From NCBI GenBank assembly GCA_020073085.1, contig JAIQFV010000005.1, positions 62,001 to 126,000 of the forward strand: a stretch of DNA of 64,000 bases, written 5' to 3'. Within the stretch, counting starts at the first letter, position 1, and each line of letters opens with the position of its first letter. This document shows positions 45,644 to 52,357 of this stretch, one piece after another. The stretch comes from Terriglobia bacterium. GTDB lineage: Bacteria > Acidobacteriota > Terriglobia > JAIQFV01. Below the pieces are notes generated by a model. That model did not search any database. It saw nothing but the letters and a program-made list of their open reading frames with translations, and was not told the DNA's origin. The position numbers were made by a program, and so were the translations under genes.

Positions 45644-46264
45644 TCAGCGCTTTTGACTTTCCGGATTCGTTGGTCGCTTCTTAGGAGTGGCTCGCATGGC
45701 GCCAGGTGGAGGGCCTCCCTGCATGCGCTGCATCCGCCGCCCTTCCCGGATCTGCTGAATCATGTGACTGATCCGCTGATCCGTGCGCTGCTGGTACTGC
45801 CGGAAGCGCGCGCGTTGACGGACATCGAGCTTGGAATCAACCTCTGACAAGGCGGATTGCAGGTTCTGTTCGTTCTGTTTCTTCACCTCATCGAGCTCTT
45901 TGAGTTTGCCTTGCACCTCGTCATCGGGGGCTCCACTGTCCAACATTTGATTGAGCTGTCGCTCCACGAGGCGCTTCTGACGCGCCCCGGCCTGACGCAC
46001 CCGCAGGTAGTTCTTCACGACAGGAATGGTGGCGGCGTATTGCTCGTCACTCAGTTTCAGCTCTTCCTGAAGGCGGCTGATGTAGAGGGCTTCGATCAAT
46101 TGCTGGACTTCGTTCTCATTGCGCGGCGCCGTCTGCACCTGGCCGTCCGCCCCGGGTGACTTTTGAGCGGGCGGCTCGGTCTGGGCAAAACGCGGCTCGG
46201 TGGTCACGATCCCCAGCAACAGCGCTCCCAGGAGGATTACACAGGCGTGATGTAAACGCGTCAT
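45644..46264 (-). CDS. Spy/CpxP-like periplasmic helical protein
   Basis: A 206-residue exported protein with a signal peptide (ILLGALLLGIVTTEPRFAQ). The mature part is almost wholly helical, rich in Gln, Arg and Glu (YISRLQEELKLSDEQYAATIP, LVERQLNQMLDSGAPDDEV). It follows the LTxxQ-type layout of CpxP/Spy, with an LKLSDEQ motif and an Arg/Met-rich tail (GRRMQRMQGGPPPGA). Such proteins chaperone or sense unfolded proteins in the periplasm. It begins two bases after the anti-sigma factor ends, so it is made with it. A second Spy-like gene lies upstream of the sigma factor. A heavy-metal sensor role as in CnrX is an alternative. Confidence 0.8.
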   Translation of the reverse strand: MTRLHHACVILLGALLLGIVTTEPRFAQTEPPAQKSPGADGQVQTAPRNENEVQQLIEALYISRLQEELKLSDEQYAATIPVVKNYLRVRQAGARQKRLVERQLNQMLDSGAPDDEVQGKLKELDEVKKQNEQNLQSALSEVDSKLDVRQRARFRQYQQRTDQRISHMIQQIREGRRMQRMQGGPPPGAMRATPKKRPTNPESQKR

Positions 46265-46266
46265 GG

Positions 46267-46911
46267 CTAACTCTTGAGTTGTTCCTTGATCAGGGCTTTC
46301 AATTGCGTCACCTCTTCCGGCCTCAGATCGGGAATATGCTGGAAGGGGTCGGAAGAGAACTCACTCGCCACCCCCATTTCATCGTCGGACGAGCCTTCTG
46401 AATCCACCGCGGCCTCGAAGAGATCACTGGCCTGCAGGTTCTGACTCGCGAGGGCATCTTCTGTGGCTTCCACCGGAACACTCAGGTCTGATTCGGGATT
46501 CGCCGTTTCAGGGGCGTCCCGTGCCACTTGGATCGGCCCGGTGTGGATTATCTTACCATATCGATATTGGAAGACCGAGACGATTGAGAAAACCAGAACC
46601 GCAGTGATCACTGCACCGATCACGGCATAATGGAAGGGAACGAGGTGCCGGAGCGGATTCCAACGTCCCCAGAAAGGACCAGGCTCCGGGACGAAACGGA
46701 TCTTTCGACTGAGATCATGACGAAATTGCAGGGCCTTGGGCTCGTCCAGATCCGGAGCCGTGTCACTGCGGGCCAGCACCTGCAATACGTCGCGGATCGA
46801 CGCCAGCTCCGCGGTGCATTCCGGGCAAGTCTCTAGATGCGCCCGCGAACTCTCGTCAGCCCCCCCGGTCTCCGCCCACTCGAGAAGTCGATCACGCTTA
46901 AGATGTCTCAT
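46267..46911 (-). CDS. Zinc-finger anti-sigma factor
   Basis: A 214-residue membrane protein. The N-terminal HxxxCxxC zinc finger has H25, C29 and C32 (HLETCPECTAEL). One membrane helix spans about residues 92-113 (YAVIGAVITAVLVFSIVSVFQYR) and the C-terminal part is acidic (DSEGSSDDEMG) with a helical end that has a polar, Glu-rich pattern. It should bind the ECF factor encoded five bases upstream and hold it at the membrane. ATG 46911 is preferred because the zinc finger begins there and the longer frame overlaps the sigma gene. Related in layout to the anti-sigma factor at 4292 but clearly a different protein. Confidence 0.88.
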   Translation of the reverse strand: MRHLKRDRLLEWAETGGADESSRAHLETCPECTAELASIRDVLQVLARSDTAPDLDEPKALQFRHDLSRKIRFVPEPGPFWGRWNPLRHLVPFHYAVIGAVITAVLVFSIVSVFQYRYGKIIHTGPIQVARDAPETANPESDLSVPVEATEDALASQNLQASDLFEAAVDSEGSSDDEMGVASEFSSDPFQHIPDLRPEEVTQLKALIKEQLKS

Positions 46912-46916
46912 AACCC

Positions 46917-47570
46917 TCAGTCCTTTTCCCCTCGATGCACTGCTCCCACTTTCATCACTTTCCGCAGGTTGGCCAGGCCGAAGAAGACGTTGGTCTTGGC
47001 GGTGGAGACAGTGCACTTCAGGATCTTCGAAATCTCTTCGTAACTCAGTTGGTCATACACGCGCAGCTTCAACGCAGCCTGCTGGCGGGGCGGGAGCTTG
47101 TCCACCGAAGCCCGCAGTGCAAGAAGCTGCTCATCCTGCTCGACCCGGTCGTCAATACGCACAGAAGGATCTTCGGCCGATTCGACTTCGACCTCTTCGC
47201 CATGCGACCGCTGCCGGTGAAGGAAGTTGATGCAATTGTTAATCGCCACCCGGTAAAGCCACGTTTTGAAGCTGGACCGGCGGTTAAAGGTTCGTAGGCC
47301 CTGGTAAGCTTTCAAAAAAGCGTCCTGCGCCAGGTCGTAAGCTTCTTCGGGATGGTGAGAATACCGAAAACACAGTCGGTAGATGGGCCGTTGATACGCT
47401 CGAACGAGTTCGTCGAAGGCCTCCCGTTCACCTTTCAGGCACCGTTCCACCCGTTCGAGGTCTGTCATCGTCTGTGCGTCGCGACCCGGGTCCTTGGATT
47501 CGGCGCGCAGAATACTGCTGGCCATTACCTGCGAGCCGATGTCCGCCCATTGTAGCTTAAGGGTTTTCAT
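46917..47570 (-). CDS. ECF-family RNA polymerase sigma factor (second in window)
   Basis: A 217-residue ECF sigma factor. Region 2 is RPIYRLCFRYSHHPEEAYDLAQDAFLKAY, with FKTWLYRVAINNCINFLHR as the promoter-melting helix; region 4 has LSYEEISKILKCTVSTAKTNVFFGLANLRK, which reads the -35 element. The N-terminal 35 residues before MTDLERVERCL are not conserved, so the ATGs at 47525 or 47468 may be true starts; none has a good ribosome site. The anti-sigma gene follows after five bases. With the two Spy-like proteins this makes a four-gene envelope-stress group. Confidence 0.93.
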   Translation of the reverse strand: MKTLKLQWADIGSQVMASSILRAESKDPGRDAQTMTDLERVERCLKGEREAFDELVRAYQRPIYRLCFRYSHHPEEAYDLAQDAFLKAYQGLRTFNRRSSFKTWLYRVAINNCINFLHRQRSHGEEVEVESAEDPSVRIDDRVEQDEQLLALRASVDKLPPRQQAALKLRVYDQLSYEEISKILKCTVSTAKTNVFFGLANLRKVMKVGAVHRGEKD

Positions 47571-47764
47571 TTTTCATTTCAAAAGGGGAGGCCGCTCCAC
47601 CCGCCCTGTCTCCATTCGGCCCACATCCAGCCTGCCCGGAACGGCCCCGGTTCACGACCCTCCCTGCCATCCCGGGTCCGGGCCCTGCCCGGCCCAGATC
47701 CCTGCACGAAAAACAAAGAGTTGCACCAGGGATCCATCAGGCACTCCGCCGTTCCCGCGATTGC

Positions 47765-48352
47765 TTACTGCGGCTCAGAAGGATTATCCGGTTTGGGGGG
47801 TGCCGAAGGCGGCGGTGCCCCTGGGCCTCGCGGGCCGACCCCCATCCGTCCGGAACCTCGCATCATCCCCATTCGCTGCTGCATCCGTTCCTCTCCGAAG
47901 CGCTTCATCTGAGCTTGGCGCCACTCATGCAGTTTATTCAACTGGTCGGCGGTGAGTGTTTCCTTCACCGTCAGACGGGTCTGAATCTGATTTTTTAACA
48001 AGGCCCCCTGCAATGCAGAGATCTCATTGATCTTCAGGTCAACTTGAGCGTGGTCCACCTTGTCGGCATCCATCAGGCTGGCGAGCTCAAGACGTTTGAT
48101 CCTCAGATCCGCCTTATTCTTAATGGCTGTCCTGGCTGAGTTCAGGAAAGCGGTTCGGAGCTTGGCATATTGTTCATCTGTGACCCCCAGCTTAGCGCGC
48201 AGATTCTGGTCCCGGAGCGCCCTAACCAGGCCTGAGTGTTGATTGACTATGCGCTTGGCGCGAAGCGGTGCGGGACCCGGCTGGGCCCACAGCGTCAACC
48301 CCATCGGCAACATAAGCATCGCGCCCAACACGATAACGATTCGACGTCTCAT
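47765..48352 (-). CDS. Second Spy/CpxP-like periplasmic protein
   Basis: A 195-residue exported protein: signal peptide MRRRIVIVLGAMLMLPMGLTLWAQ, then a helical body (LRAKLGVTDEQYAKLRTAFLNSARTAIKNKADLRIKR...) with the VTDEQYAK and LTADQLNKL motifs of the CpxP/Spy group. The C-terminus is Met/Gly/Pro-rich (QQRMGMMRGSGRMGVGP), which suggests metal binding as in CnrX/RcnX-type sensors. A very strong AAGGAGGAG ribosome site precedes the ATG. It is upstream of, and in the same direction as, the ECF sigma gene, which is 194 bases further. Confidence 0.82.
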   Translation of the reverse strand: MRRRIVIVLGAMLMLPMGLTLWAQPGPAPLRAKRIVNQHSGLVRALRDQNLRAKLGVTDEQYAKLRTAFLNSARTAIKNKADLRIKRLELASLMDADKVDHAQVDLKINEISALQGALLKNQIQTRLTVKETLTADQLNKLHEWRQAQMKRFGEERMQQRMGMMRGSGRMGVGPRGPGAPPPSAPPKPDNPSEPQ

Positions 48353-48440
48353 ATAAACTCCTCCTTGAATTTACTCAATGACATAGACACTGAAGCTAAC
48401 AGAAAGTTTAATCAAGGAGTTAGAAAAACTGCTTTCCATG

Positions 48441-48620: not shown

Positions 48621-50381
48621 GTGTCTATGGGCAAACTTGGAACAAGTCTCCGGCCTCTGGCAGCTTATATCAAACGATATCGCCGCCGGATCGTCCTGGG
48701 TTTTCTTTGCGTGGTGACTACCAACGCCGTCGGGATGGCGTTCCCCTGGGTATTGAAGGGCGCGATTGATGATCTAACGAGGGCGCTGACTTATGAGAAA
48801 CTCATTCGCTATCCTTTGATTCTGATTGGAATCTCCCTGATTCAGGCGGTGTTCCGCTTTTCCATGCGTTGGATCCTCATCGGGGTATCCCGAGATATTG
48901 AATATGATTTGCGTAATGATTTTTTTTCCCGCCTCCTGGAACTTTCTCCGCGGTTCTATCATCACAACCGCACCGGGGATTTGATGTCCAAGGCGACCAA
49001 CGACATCGCCGCGGTGCGAATGCTGGTGGGCCCGGGCATCATGTACACCGCGAACACCGTGCTGGCTACCATCCTGGCCCTGAGCATCATGTTCAGCATC
49101 GACGCGCGGTTGACCCTCTACGCGATGATTCCCCTGCCGCTGGTCAGCGTCGCGATGCGGTTTTTCGGCTCCCGGATCCACGAACGGTTTGAGAAAATCC
49201 AGGCCATGTTTTCTGATATCAGCGCCCGCGTGCAGGAGAATCTCTCGGGCATTCGGGTCGTCAAGTCCTTCTGTCAGGAGGAGTCGGAAATCGAAGCGTT
49301 TAAGCAGACGAACCGGGAGTACATCCAGAAGAATCTTAGCTTGATCCGGCTCTGGGGGACCTTTTATCCCACTTTGGAACTGCTGATCGGTCTGGCATTT
49401 GTCGTGGTGCTGTGGTTTGGGGGAATGCAGGTCATTGCGGGAAAAATCTCCTTGGGTTCTTTCGTGGCCTTTAACACCTACCTGGGGATGCTGGTGTGGC
49501 CGATGATCGCTTTCGGTTGGGTGATCAACCTGGTGGAGCGTGGGGCGGCCTCCATGGGCCGCATCAATGTCATCCTCGAGACAAGGCCTGACATTGCAGA
49601 CGGCCCTGAGGTCTCGGTGGCCGCTGGATTCCCCATTGAAGGCGAGATTGAATTTCGAAATCTCTCGTTTGCTTACAATGGCCAGCCGGTCCTCCAGAAC
49701 ATCAATCTTAGAATAGCGCCCGGACAACGCGTGGCAATCGTCGGGCATACCGGGTCTGGCAAATCGACGCTGGTCCATCTCATTCCCCGGCTCTACGATG
49801 CCCCGCGGGGAACCGTCTTCATCGACGGAAGAGACATCCGGCAATACCCCCTCGCGGCCTTGCGCTCTCAAATTGGATTCGTTCCGCAGGAGACGTTCCT
49901 GTTTAGTGAGACCGTGGCCGAGAACATCGCGTTCGGCGTCTCCGGGGCCGAGCGGCAGTCCATCGTCCGGGCCGCCGAGGTGTCTCATCTCTTTGGCGAC
50001 GTTCAGCGCTTTCCCAAGCAATTCGACACGATGGTGGGGGAGCGGGGAATTACTCTGTCGGGGGGACAGAAACAACGGTCCGCCATCTCCCGGGCCGTCA
50101 TACGCAACCCTAAGATCCTGATCCTTGATGATGCCCTTTCGAGCGTCGATACCGAGACGGAAGAAAAAATCCTGCGGGAACTCGATGCGGTCATGCGGAA
50201 TCGCACTTCGCTCGTCATCTCGCACCGGGTTTCCACCGTGAAGAACTCCGACAAGATCATCGTCCTCTCCGAGGGCCGAATCGTTGAGGAGGGGACCCAC
50301 AACGAGTTGTTGACCCGGGATGGATATTATGCGGAGCTGTATCAGAAACAGTTGCTGGAAGAAGAGCTGGAACAGATATGA
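48621..50381 (+). CDS. ABC exporter half with degenerate catalytic site (subunit 1)
   Basis: A 586-residue fused permease-ATPase. Six membrane helices span about residues 20-310, then the ATPase domain: Walker A GHTGSGKST (near 375), signature LSGGQKQRS (near 478), Walker B LILDDALSSVD (near 501) and the H-loop VISHR. The residue after the Walker B aspartate is Asp rather than the catalytic Glu, as in the degenerate-site subunit of heterodimeric exporters (TM287, BmrC, LmrC). Its partner is the next gene, whose signature is LSVGQ. GTG 48621 follows AAGGGA by six bases. Likely exports lipids, drugs or peptides. Confidence 0.93.
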   Translation: MSMGKLGTSLRPLAAYIKRYRRRIVLGFLCVVTTNAVGMAFPWVLKGAIDDLTRALTYEKLIRYPLILIGISLIQAVFRFSMRWILIGVSRDIEYDLRNDFFSRLLELSPRFYHHNRTGDLMSKATNDIAAVRMLVGPGIMYTANTVLATILALSIMFSIDARLTLYAMIPLPLVSVAMRFFGSRIHERFEKIQAMFSDISARVQENLSGIRVVKSFCQEESEIEAFKQTNREYIQKNLSLIRLWGTFYPTLELLIGLAFVVVLWFGGMQVIAGKISLGSFVAFNTYLGMLVWPMIAFGWVINLVERGAASMGRINVILETRPDIADGPEVSVAAGFPIEGEIEFRNLSFAYNGQPVLQNINLRIAPGQRVAIVGHTGSGKSTLVHLIPRLYDAPRGTVFIDGRDIRQYPLAALRSQIGFVPQETFLFSETVAENIAFGVSGAERQSIVRAAEVSHLFGDVQRFPKQFDTMVGERGITLSGGQKQRSAISRAVIRNPKILILDDALSSVDTETEEKILRELDAVMRNRTSLVISHRVSTVKNSDKIIVLSEGRIVEEGTHNELLTRDGYYAELYQKQLLEEELEQI

Positions 50382-50554: not shown

Positions 50555-52357
50555 ATGGCCCAATTCCACGAAGAGGAAGCACTCGGGAAGGCATACGACC
50601 ACAGGCTAATGGCCCGGTTGTTGCGCTATGTTCGCCCTTACTGGCACATGGCAACCGTCGCGATGGGGTGCATTCTTGTCTTCGCCGTGCTGCAGGCAGT
50701 CCCGCCGTATTTGACCAAGGTAGCCATCGACCGCTACATCCTCACGCATAACTACGCGGGGCTGGGGAAGATCGGCCTTCTCTTCATTGCAGTTCTGGTG
50801 GCCTCATTTGTCCTGGAGTTCTTTCAGACCTTCCTGACCCAGTGGATGGGTCAGCTCATCATGTACGACATGCGTGTGGAGATCTTCACGCATCTTCAGA
50901 AGTTGCAGTTGAAGTTTTTTGACAAGAATCCGGTGGGGCGGCTGATGACCCGGGTGACGACCGACGTGGATGCCCTCAACGAGCTTTTTGCGGCAGGCCT
51001 AGTCACCGTCTTTGGCGACCTCCTGACCCTGCTGGCGATCCTGGCGGTCATCCTGCGATTGAACTGGCGGCTGGCGCTCGTCAGCTTCGCGGTCATCCCG
51101 TTCATCGTAGTCACGACCACGGTGTTCCGCCGCAAGGCGCGCGATTCCTACCGTGACGTTCGAGCGGCGGTGGCGCGTATCAGCGCCTTCCTGCAGGAAC
51201 ATCTTTCGGGGATGAGCGTGATCCAACTCTTCAACCGGGAGGGCAAGAGTTTCCAGCAGTTCGAGACCATCAATGAGCGCCACCGCAAGGCCAATTACGA
51301 TTCCATCCTGGCTTATGCAGTCTTCTTTCCTATCGTGGAAATCCTGAGTGCGACGGCGGTGGCCCTGATTATCTGGTATGGGGGCCATGAAGTCTTGAAG
51401 TCAGCGATCAAAATGGGGACCCTGGTGGCCTTCATCCAGTATTCACAACGCTTCTTCCGGCCTATCCAGGACCTCAGTGAGAAATACAATATCCTTCAAT
51501 CGGCGATGGCCAGTTCAGAGCGCATCTTTAAGCTGCTGGATACGCCGGTTACCATTGCCTCGCCCAAGACCCCGCACCCCCTTCAGACCGTCCAGGGCTC
51601 CATCGAATTTCGAAACGTCTGGTTTACCTACTCCGATGCGGCCGATCCGGCCCCGGAGGAATATGTGCTGAAGGATGTTTCCTTCCGGGTGGATCCGGGC
51701 AAGTCGGTGGCCATTGTGGGACATACGGGGGCCGGAAAAACCACTTTGATCAGTTTGCTTCAACGGTTCTATGATGTGAACCGCGGTTCCATCCTGCTCG
51801 ATGGCATGGACCTGCGTGAATTGGACCTGGGGGAGCTGCGCCGCCACTACGGTGTCGTGTTGCAGGACGTCTTCATTTTTTCGGGGACGTTTGAAAGCAA
51901 CATCCGGCTGGGGACACCCTGGATTGACGAACAGCAGGTGCAGAATGCCGCCGTGGATGTCAACCTCTACGACTTCATCCGCGAGCTGCCCAACGGCCTC
52001 AAGGAAGAGGTGCGCGAGCGCGGCAGCACGCTCTCGGTAGGCCAGAAGCAGTTGATGGCCTTCGCACGGGCCCTGGCGCATGATCCACGAATCCTGATCC
52101 TCGATGAGGCGACCTCGAGCGTGGATACGGAGACCGAGCTCAAGATTCGGGAGGCCCTCGCCCGCCTGATGAAGGGGAGGACCTCCATCGTCATCGCCCA
52201 TCGGCTCTCGACAATCCAGAATGCCGACCAGATCATCGTGATGCATAAGGGACAGGTTCGAGAGATAGGGAATCACCAGGAGCTTTTGGCGAAGCGAGGC
52301 ATCTATTACCGGCTCTATCAGCTCCAATACAAGGAACAGGAAACGCGAGTGGCATAG
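50555..52357 (+). CDS. ABC exporter half with canonical catalytic Glu (subunit 2)
   Basis: A 600-residue fused permease-ATPase. Six helices, then Walker A GHTGAGKTT (near 390), a non-canonical signature LSVGQKQLM (near 492), Walker B LILDEATSSVD with the catalytic Glu (near 515), and the H-loop VIAHR. This combination with subunit 1 (Asp in Walker B, canonical LSGGQ) gives one full and one degenerate ATP site, as in heterodimeric exporters such as TM287/288 and BmrCD. ATG 50555 lacks a ribosome site but follows the heptad repeat by 12 bases. Substrate unknown. Confidence 0.93.
   Translation: MAQFHEEEALGKAYDHRLMARLLRYVRPYWHMATVAMGCILVFAVLQAVPPYLTKVAIDRYILTHNYAGLGKIGLLFIAVLVASFVLEFFQTFLTQWMGQLIMYDMRVEIFTHLQKLQLKFFDKNPVGRLMTRVTTDVDALNELFAAGLVTVFGDLLTLLAILAVILRLNWRLALVSFAVIPFIVVTTTVFRRKARDSYRDVRAAVARISAFLQEHLSGMSVIQLFNREGKSFQQFETINERHRKANYDSILAYAVFFPIVEILSATAVALIIWYGGHEVLKSAIKMGTLVAFIQYSQRFFRPIQDLSEKYNILQSAMASSERIFKLLDTPVTIASPKTPHPLQTVQGSIEFRNVWFTYSDAADPAPEEYVLKDVSFRVDPGKSVAIVGHTGAGKTTLISLLQRFYDVNRGSILLDGMDLRELDLGELRRHYGVVLQDVFIFSGTFESNIRLGTPWIDEQQVQNAAVDVNLYDFIRELPNGLKEEVRERGSTLSVGQKQLMAFARALAHDPRILILDEATSSVDTETELKIREALARLMKGRTSIVIAHRLSTIQNADQIIVMHKGQVREIGNHQELLAKRGIYYRLYQLQYKEQETRVA

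Follow-up and report, generated by a model that had tools for sequence, protein, structure and literature searches.

A Terriglobia ECF sigma/anti-sigma operon with a Spy-like gene at each end: a proposed chaperone-gated envelope-stress switch

A 64,000-nucleotide contig stretch of a Terriglobia bacterium (the whole stretch analysed, hereafter the window) carries four minus-strand genes at 48352-45644, in the order spy1, ECF sigma factor, membrane anti-sigma factor (ASF) and spy2, whose organisation suggests an autoregulated envelope-stress operon in which spy2, seated on the ASF tail, would act as the gatekeeper and spy1 as the effector chaperone. We give this reading an even chance of being correct, and the whole account is one that we infer from sequence and structure. 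All four genes listed by the initial annotation were recovered as open reading frames (ORFs) on the minus strand (Table 1), including the second Spy-like gene, which starts two bases past the ASF stop codon. The operon is flanked by trpD on one side and a divergent ABC exporter pair on the other in the window and in both relatives of the same family (G017 and G008), and no CpxA/CpxR-type kinase or regulator gene lies in the neighbourhood between trpD and the ABC pair, in agreement with the earlier remark that the cluster has no two-component kinase.

Table 1. Features of the operon and its linked neighbours (positions in the window)
Feature	Position	Strand	Description
ABC2, linked neighbour	50555..52357	+	Other exporter half, LILDE
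ABC1, linked neighbour	48621..50381	+	Half of heterodimeric ABC exporter, degenerate Walker B, LILDD
Candidate ECF promoter before spy1	48386..48411	-	TTAAAC(T)-N15-TGTC, motif match
spy1	47765..48352	-	Secreted Spy/ZraP/CpxP-like protein, Met-rich tail; proposed effector chaperone
TACAAT, -10-like	47549..47554	-	In conserved, probably non-coding block before sigma; possible second promoter
ECF sigma factor	46917..47468	-	Sigma70_r2 + r4_2; ORF open from 47570, likely start 47468
ASF	46267..46911	-	Membrane anti-sigma factor, HX3CX2C, one TM, periplasmic part
HX3CX2C motif of ASF	46816..46839	-	Residues 25-32, from sequence
ASF C-terminal periplasmic tail	46270..46350	-	Residues 188-214, conserved; proposed docking peptide
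spy2	45644..46264	-	Secreted Spy/CnrX-fold protein; proposed partner of ASF tail

The family of the window (f1) comprises three genomes (its own, G000, as well as G017 and G008), and another Terriglobia family (f3) comprises five. The four-gene cluster is more than a chance arrangement, since the same order is present in both f1 relatives compared (L034 and L035), where spy1 is 81 and 60% identical to its counterpart in the window, sigma 89 and 69%, ASF 71 and 33%, and spy2 80 and 59%, respectively. A spy2 profile matched 8 of 200 genomes of the class, namely the three f1 and the five f3 genomes. The order in f3 is sigma, ASF and spy2 (in G033 the ORF size used left the ASF unlisted, though the gap would accommodate one), and no Spy-like gene was found before sigma in the ORF listing of the five genomes, among which G060 covers only about 650 bases there. 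A triad of sigma, membrane anti-sigma and Spy-like gene on one strand is therefore common to the window and f3.

Such triads extend across the class. Proteins matching PF13801 were detected in 103 of 121 class genomes, and an ECF sigma gene was located within the examined flank in 20 of the best 30 PF13801 loci; the other ten had none in the examined stretch, whose upstream side ends at a contig edge in L074 and L081. Sigma region 4 is matched 39 times in the 5.8 Mb of the own genome, and we estimate the chance proximity of sigma and Spy genes to be of the order of one percent. The own genome also contains two more sigma/anti-sigma/Metal_resist triads (G000:C12, L036, and G000:C11, L037). When longer stretches of those 20 loci were inspected together with the two triads of the own genome, all 22 had a single Spy gene, which follows sigma and shares its strand; no Spy gene precedes sigma. 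The four-gene form was observed in all three f1 genomes and in none of the 27 other triads (five f3 and these 22).

The sigma ORF (46917-47570) contains sigma70 regions 2 and 4 by Pfam and is a clear ECF factor, the nearest solved structures being sigma-H, RpoE and SigW; the 14 PDB sequences reaching E<=1e-10 carry names such as sigma-H, sigma-E and SigW, with no chain called CnrH among them. Its start is probably the ATG at 47468, because codons 1-34 of the ORF, which differ between the window and G017 by 7, 4 and 6 changes at codon positions 1, 2 and 3 (7, 5 and 41 in codons 35-205), have no coding-type substitution; the same pattern ruled out a conserved N-terminal extension. The AT-rich block before sigma (47535-47580), probably non-coding, is kept in all three f1 genomes, with TAGAAT in place of TACAAT in G017, and may be a second, separate housekeeping promoter. 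The ASF has H25-X3-C29-X2-C32 and a single hydrophobic segment, with no family match over cut-off (Pfam zf-HC2, E=0.11; NCBIfam antisigma, 20.7 bits versus a cut-off of 100). As a query, it gave matches in 24 of 151 class genomes, those outside f1 being weak and partial. An alignment of seven sequences across f1 and f3 revealed that H3, H25, C29 and C32 are invariant, as are F190 of the tail and, six residues on, L196, which is followed by an acidic, leucine-rich stretch.

All eight systems have the motif TTAAAC(C/T)-N15/16-TGTC upstream of their first gene, which is sigma in f3 and spy1 in f1; the spacer is 15 in f1 and 16 in f3. TTAAACN{14,18}TGTC has a single match in the whole window, ahead of spy1 (0.21 expected); this f1 site was spotted by eye after the f3 site, hence its support comes from rarity and conservation and not from independent prediction. 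Genome-wide, TTAAACYN{15,16}TGTCYA is rare, with 12 matches in the eight genomes, seven of them at the operon, versus three for the reversed control: seven matches in the three f1 genomes (control 0) and five in the five f3 genomes (control 3). The operon site of G026 reads TGTCGA and is missed by this pattern. As the motif is almost absent elsewhere in these genomes, spy1 probably belongs to the sigma factor's own small regulon, lying in f1 between promoter and sigma, and the motif may be read as the promoter of the operon's own sigma. The possibility that the Spy-like genes lie outside the regulon is thus answered in favour of the initial annotation, at the level of sequence, by the presence of the f3 sigma-promoter motif before spy1. 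The sole other match in G000 (L055, G000:C9:180145-180173) lies just upstream of a gene whose 107-aa product looks secreted and has no Pfam match; the sigma factor may have a second target there.

In the mechanism that we propose, the cytoplasmic HX3CX2C domain of ASF would bind the sigma factor at rest, while spy2 would sit on the periplasmic C-terminal tail of ASF and stabilise it. A misfolded periplasmic protein or another envelope insult would pull spy2 off, or alter the complex, after which ASF would be inactivated or cleaved and sigma freed to transcribe its own operon from TTAAACY-N15/16-TGTC. The first product would be spy1, a ZraP/CpxP/Spy-like chaperone countering the damage, and the sigma factor, ASF and spy2 made next would restore the brake. 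What the sequence itself provides is gene order and its conservation, the position and rarity of the motif, family and fold resemblance, and tail motifs, from which we infer binding, release, proteolysis, the signal and the use of the motif by this sigma factor. The gatekeeper model is favoured because the triad is conserved in two families and eight genomes, because the motif occupies the place expected of an autoregulatory promoter in f3, ahead of sigma, and stands ahead of spy1 in f1, and because a precedent exists in the CirYZ system, where deletion of cirZ raised cirY and spy, according to the excerpted text of PMC13114119. It is further favoured by the two kinds of Spy protein and by the ASF tails, both considered below. 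It is weakened by weak fold matches, a tail pattern derived from the sequences themselves and not fitted by the f1 and f3 tails, the spacer of 15 versus 16, and the triad at L037, which has neither the tail motif nor HX3CX2C.

Two different kinds of Spy appear to be present in the operon. While spy1 matches Pfam Metal_resist PF13801 (41.3 bits versus a gathering cut-off of 29.2), spy2 has no Pfam match over cut-off, and LTXXQ PF07813 gave no match across the own genome. However, spy2 can be considered Spy-like because of its homology to spy1 (E=8.6e-5), its LTxxQ-type motifs (LSDEQ and LDVRQ; we take LTxxQ to be a Spy motif), which also occur in spy1, and its predicted fold, a helical core within residues 50-181, mostly at pLDDT >90. 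Foldseek matched spy2 to CnrX with prob 0.97-0.99 and TM(target) 0.61-0.63, but at E 0.21-0.45 (structural alignment: Z 7.1, rmsd 4.1, 105 aligned), and spy1 to ZraP (TM(target) 0.72, E 0.027), with CpxP and Spy also matched. These predicted resemblances, of spy2 (weakly) to the CnrX sensor and of spy1 to ZraP/CpxP/Spy, may reflect only a common arrangement of helical proteins: the Foldseek E values of 0.03-0.9 are not significant, Z is <10 for helical proteins, and the VIA-align lists include unrelated helical proteins at equal Z and are hence not decisive. A quick tree of 43 proteins placed the eight spy2 proteins of f1 and f3 in one clade and f1 spy1 in a separate one (each 99, SH-aLRT). 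The latter lies inside a 10-row group with support of 94, which is below the starred level; in the stretches examined no sigma gene adjoins any of the other seven members, and for two of these the stretch ends at a contig edge. A sigma neighbour is found for 21 of 22 rows in the other large group (the exception is L068), and one sigma-linked Spy (L003) falls outside both groups on a long branch.

The homology of spy1 and spy2 and their shared LTxxQ-type motifs also suit a possible, if rather unlikely, alternative, in which both serve a small envelope-stress regulon simply as effector chaperones, ASF senses alone and spy2 is placed for co-expression only. The role suggested for Spy in CirYZ-Spy, that of an effector and no more, could apply to spy2 as well; in the CirYZ-spy operon of Phocaeicola spy is a protective target, as far as the excerpted text of PMC13114119 goes. 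The separate clades and differing fold leads of the two proteins argue against this alternative, and so do the periplasmic tails of Spy-linked ASFs: the motif D..L[LMF]..[IV]...P..[ML].P was found in 14 of 19 other Spy-linked ASFs and in 0 of 18 ASFs not linked to Spy, with the qualification that the regex was drawn from the same sequences as those counted. These 19 are the ASFs recovered from the 22 triad loci (ORFs are missing for L130, L136 and L139); ASF ORFs were also not recovered for L010 and L023, and L015 and L025 were kept out of the control because a Spy gene adjoins each. On inspection by eye, L131 and L134 are near-misses to the regex, and the own-genome ASF at L036 has a DEILL...P tail motif. 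The f1 and f3 tails carry a different motif. By analogy with CnrY and CnrX, both types of tail motif may be docking peptides for the Spy partner, as the gatekeeper model would have it.

Improbable, in our judgement, is a metal-responsive switch, in which spy2 or spy1 would bind copper, nickel or zinc and signal through ASF in the manner of CnrX. It is suggested by the Pfam name of spy1 (Metal_resist), by the four tail methionines of spy1 (M157, M161, M163 and M164) and by CnrX as the family lead for spy2. The Met-rich tail, in which the initial annotation saw a hint of metal sensing, is indeed conserved in all three f1 genomes, but this conservation proves nothing about metal sensing. For spy2, metal ligand columns were sought in the eight sequences and none was found, as none of the nine invariant columns is His, Cys or internal Met; metal sensing by this protein is therefore not supported. 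The anti-sigma factor is not CnrY-like, and the flanking genes, trpD and the MsbA/SmdAB-like ABC exporter pair, also speak against a metal switch.

The exporter itself was considered as the main target of a switch sensing lipid or drug stress. ABC1 and ABC2 appear to form a heterodimer in which one site is degenerate; they are orthologous between f1 and f3 (59-63% over full-length genes; ~34% between the halves), and the pair adjoins the operon in seven of the eight systems while the other flank differs (G060 has only a partial ABC1 at a contig end). The exporter as main target is nevertheless very improbable, because ABC1 has a match in 155 of 200 genomes, 24 of the best 30 ABC1 loci have no sigma neighbour, and no copy of the motif facing ABC1 was found in the window; the linkage, which may be ancestral in origin, is treated as a lead only. 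In two genomes of another family (L063 of G118, and G053:C13:291103), an ABC1 relative is immediately preceded by a Metal_resist gene pointing the same way, so that Spy and exporter genes are again neighbours, though arranged differently.

Sensing of envelope damage by membrane anti-sigma factors is known for few of them, and the recurring triad together with a conserved ASF tail leads to a simple hypothesis, namely that the chaperone reports its own occupancy to the sigma factor. The variant in which one promoter would serve two Spy genes points to a way of splitting sensor from effector, and a candidate motif with almost no other genomic copies predicts a tiny regulon. More speculatively, and on balance doubtfully, Spy proteins of Terriglobia might be general co-regulators of class I-type ASFs, whose tail peptide would occupy the Spy client site in competition with unfolded protein. 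If so, this would be a chaperone-titration switch for ECF sigma factors, and in f1 a stand-alone Spy chaperone would have come under the same promoter, dividing gatekeeper and effector between two genes of a single operon. As far as our literature searches reach, the four-gene form, the promoter motif, the class-wide triad and the tail motifs are new; searches of open-licence PMC papers found neither the four-gene form nor a report of sigma-ASF-Spy in Acidobacteriota.

In Escherichia coli, CpxP and Spy, working with CpxAR and BaeSR, provide a Spy-fold gatekeeper and a Spy-fold effector chaperone in envelope stress; the window would have a similar pair, as proposed, but with a sigma/anti-sigma couple in place of two-component kinases. 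CnrYXH of Cupriavidus metallidurans, whose neighbour is an RND efflux operon, encodes together an ECF sigma factor, a membrane anti-sigma factor and a periplasmic Spy-fold protein. The same three components occur in the window, with CnrX as a weak family-level fold lead for spy2, and the Cnr-like logic envisaged by the initial annotation is supported. In contrast to CnrYXH, the window has a further Spy gene next to the candidate promoter, a neighbouring ABC exporter pair instead of an RND efflux operon, and a spy2 without conserved metal ligands, and its ASF is of class I type (HX3CX2C) whereas CnrY is class II, according to the excerpted text of PMC7406223. The operon is placed outside Cnr because the anti-sigma class differs and the metal ligands are missing. 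The excerpted text of PMC13114119 describes, besides the control of spy by CpxAR and BaeSR, the CirY/CirZ-Spy system of Phocaeicola vulgatus, in which sigma, anti-sigma and spy are co-transcribed, the sigma factor raises its own operon and spy, loss of the anti-sigma gene cirZ increases cirY and spy, and a second paralogous operon is present in the genome. By gene layout the window is similar, with further triads in its genome, but has two Spy genes where Phocaeicola has one per operon. The earlier statement that no such system had been described thus holds for the four-gene form and fails for the triad, which is not new in kind, having precedents in CnrYXH and CirYZ-spy (2026, PMC13114119, in its excerpted text). 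Spy at both ends of the operon, for which no description was found, is a lineage-specific variant, in a soil bacterium, of a partly known design.
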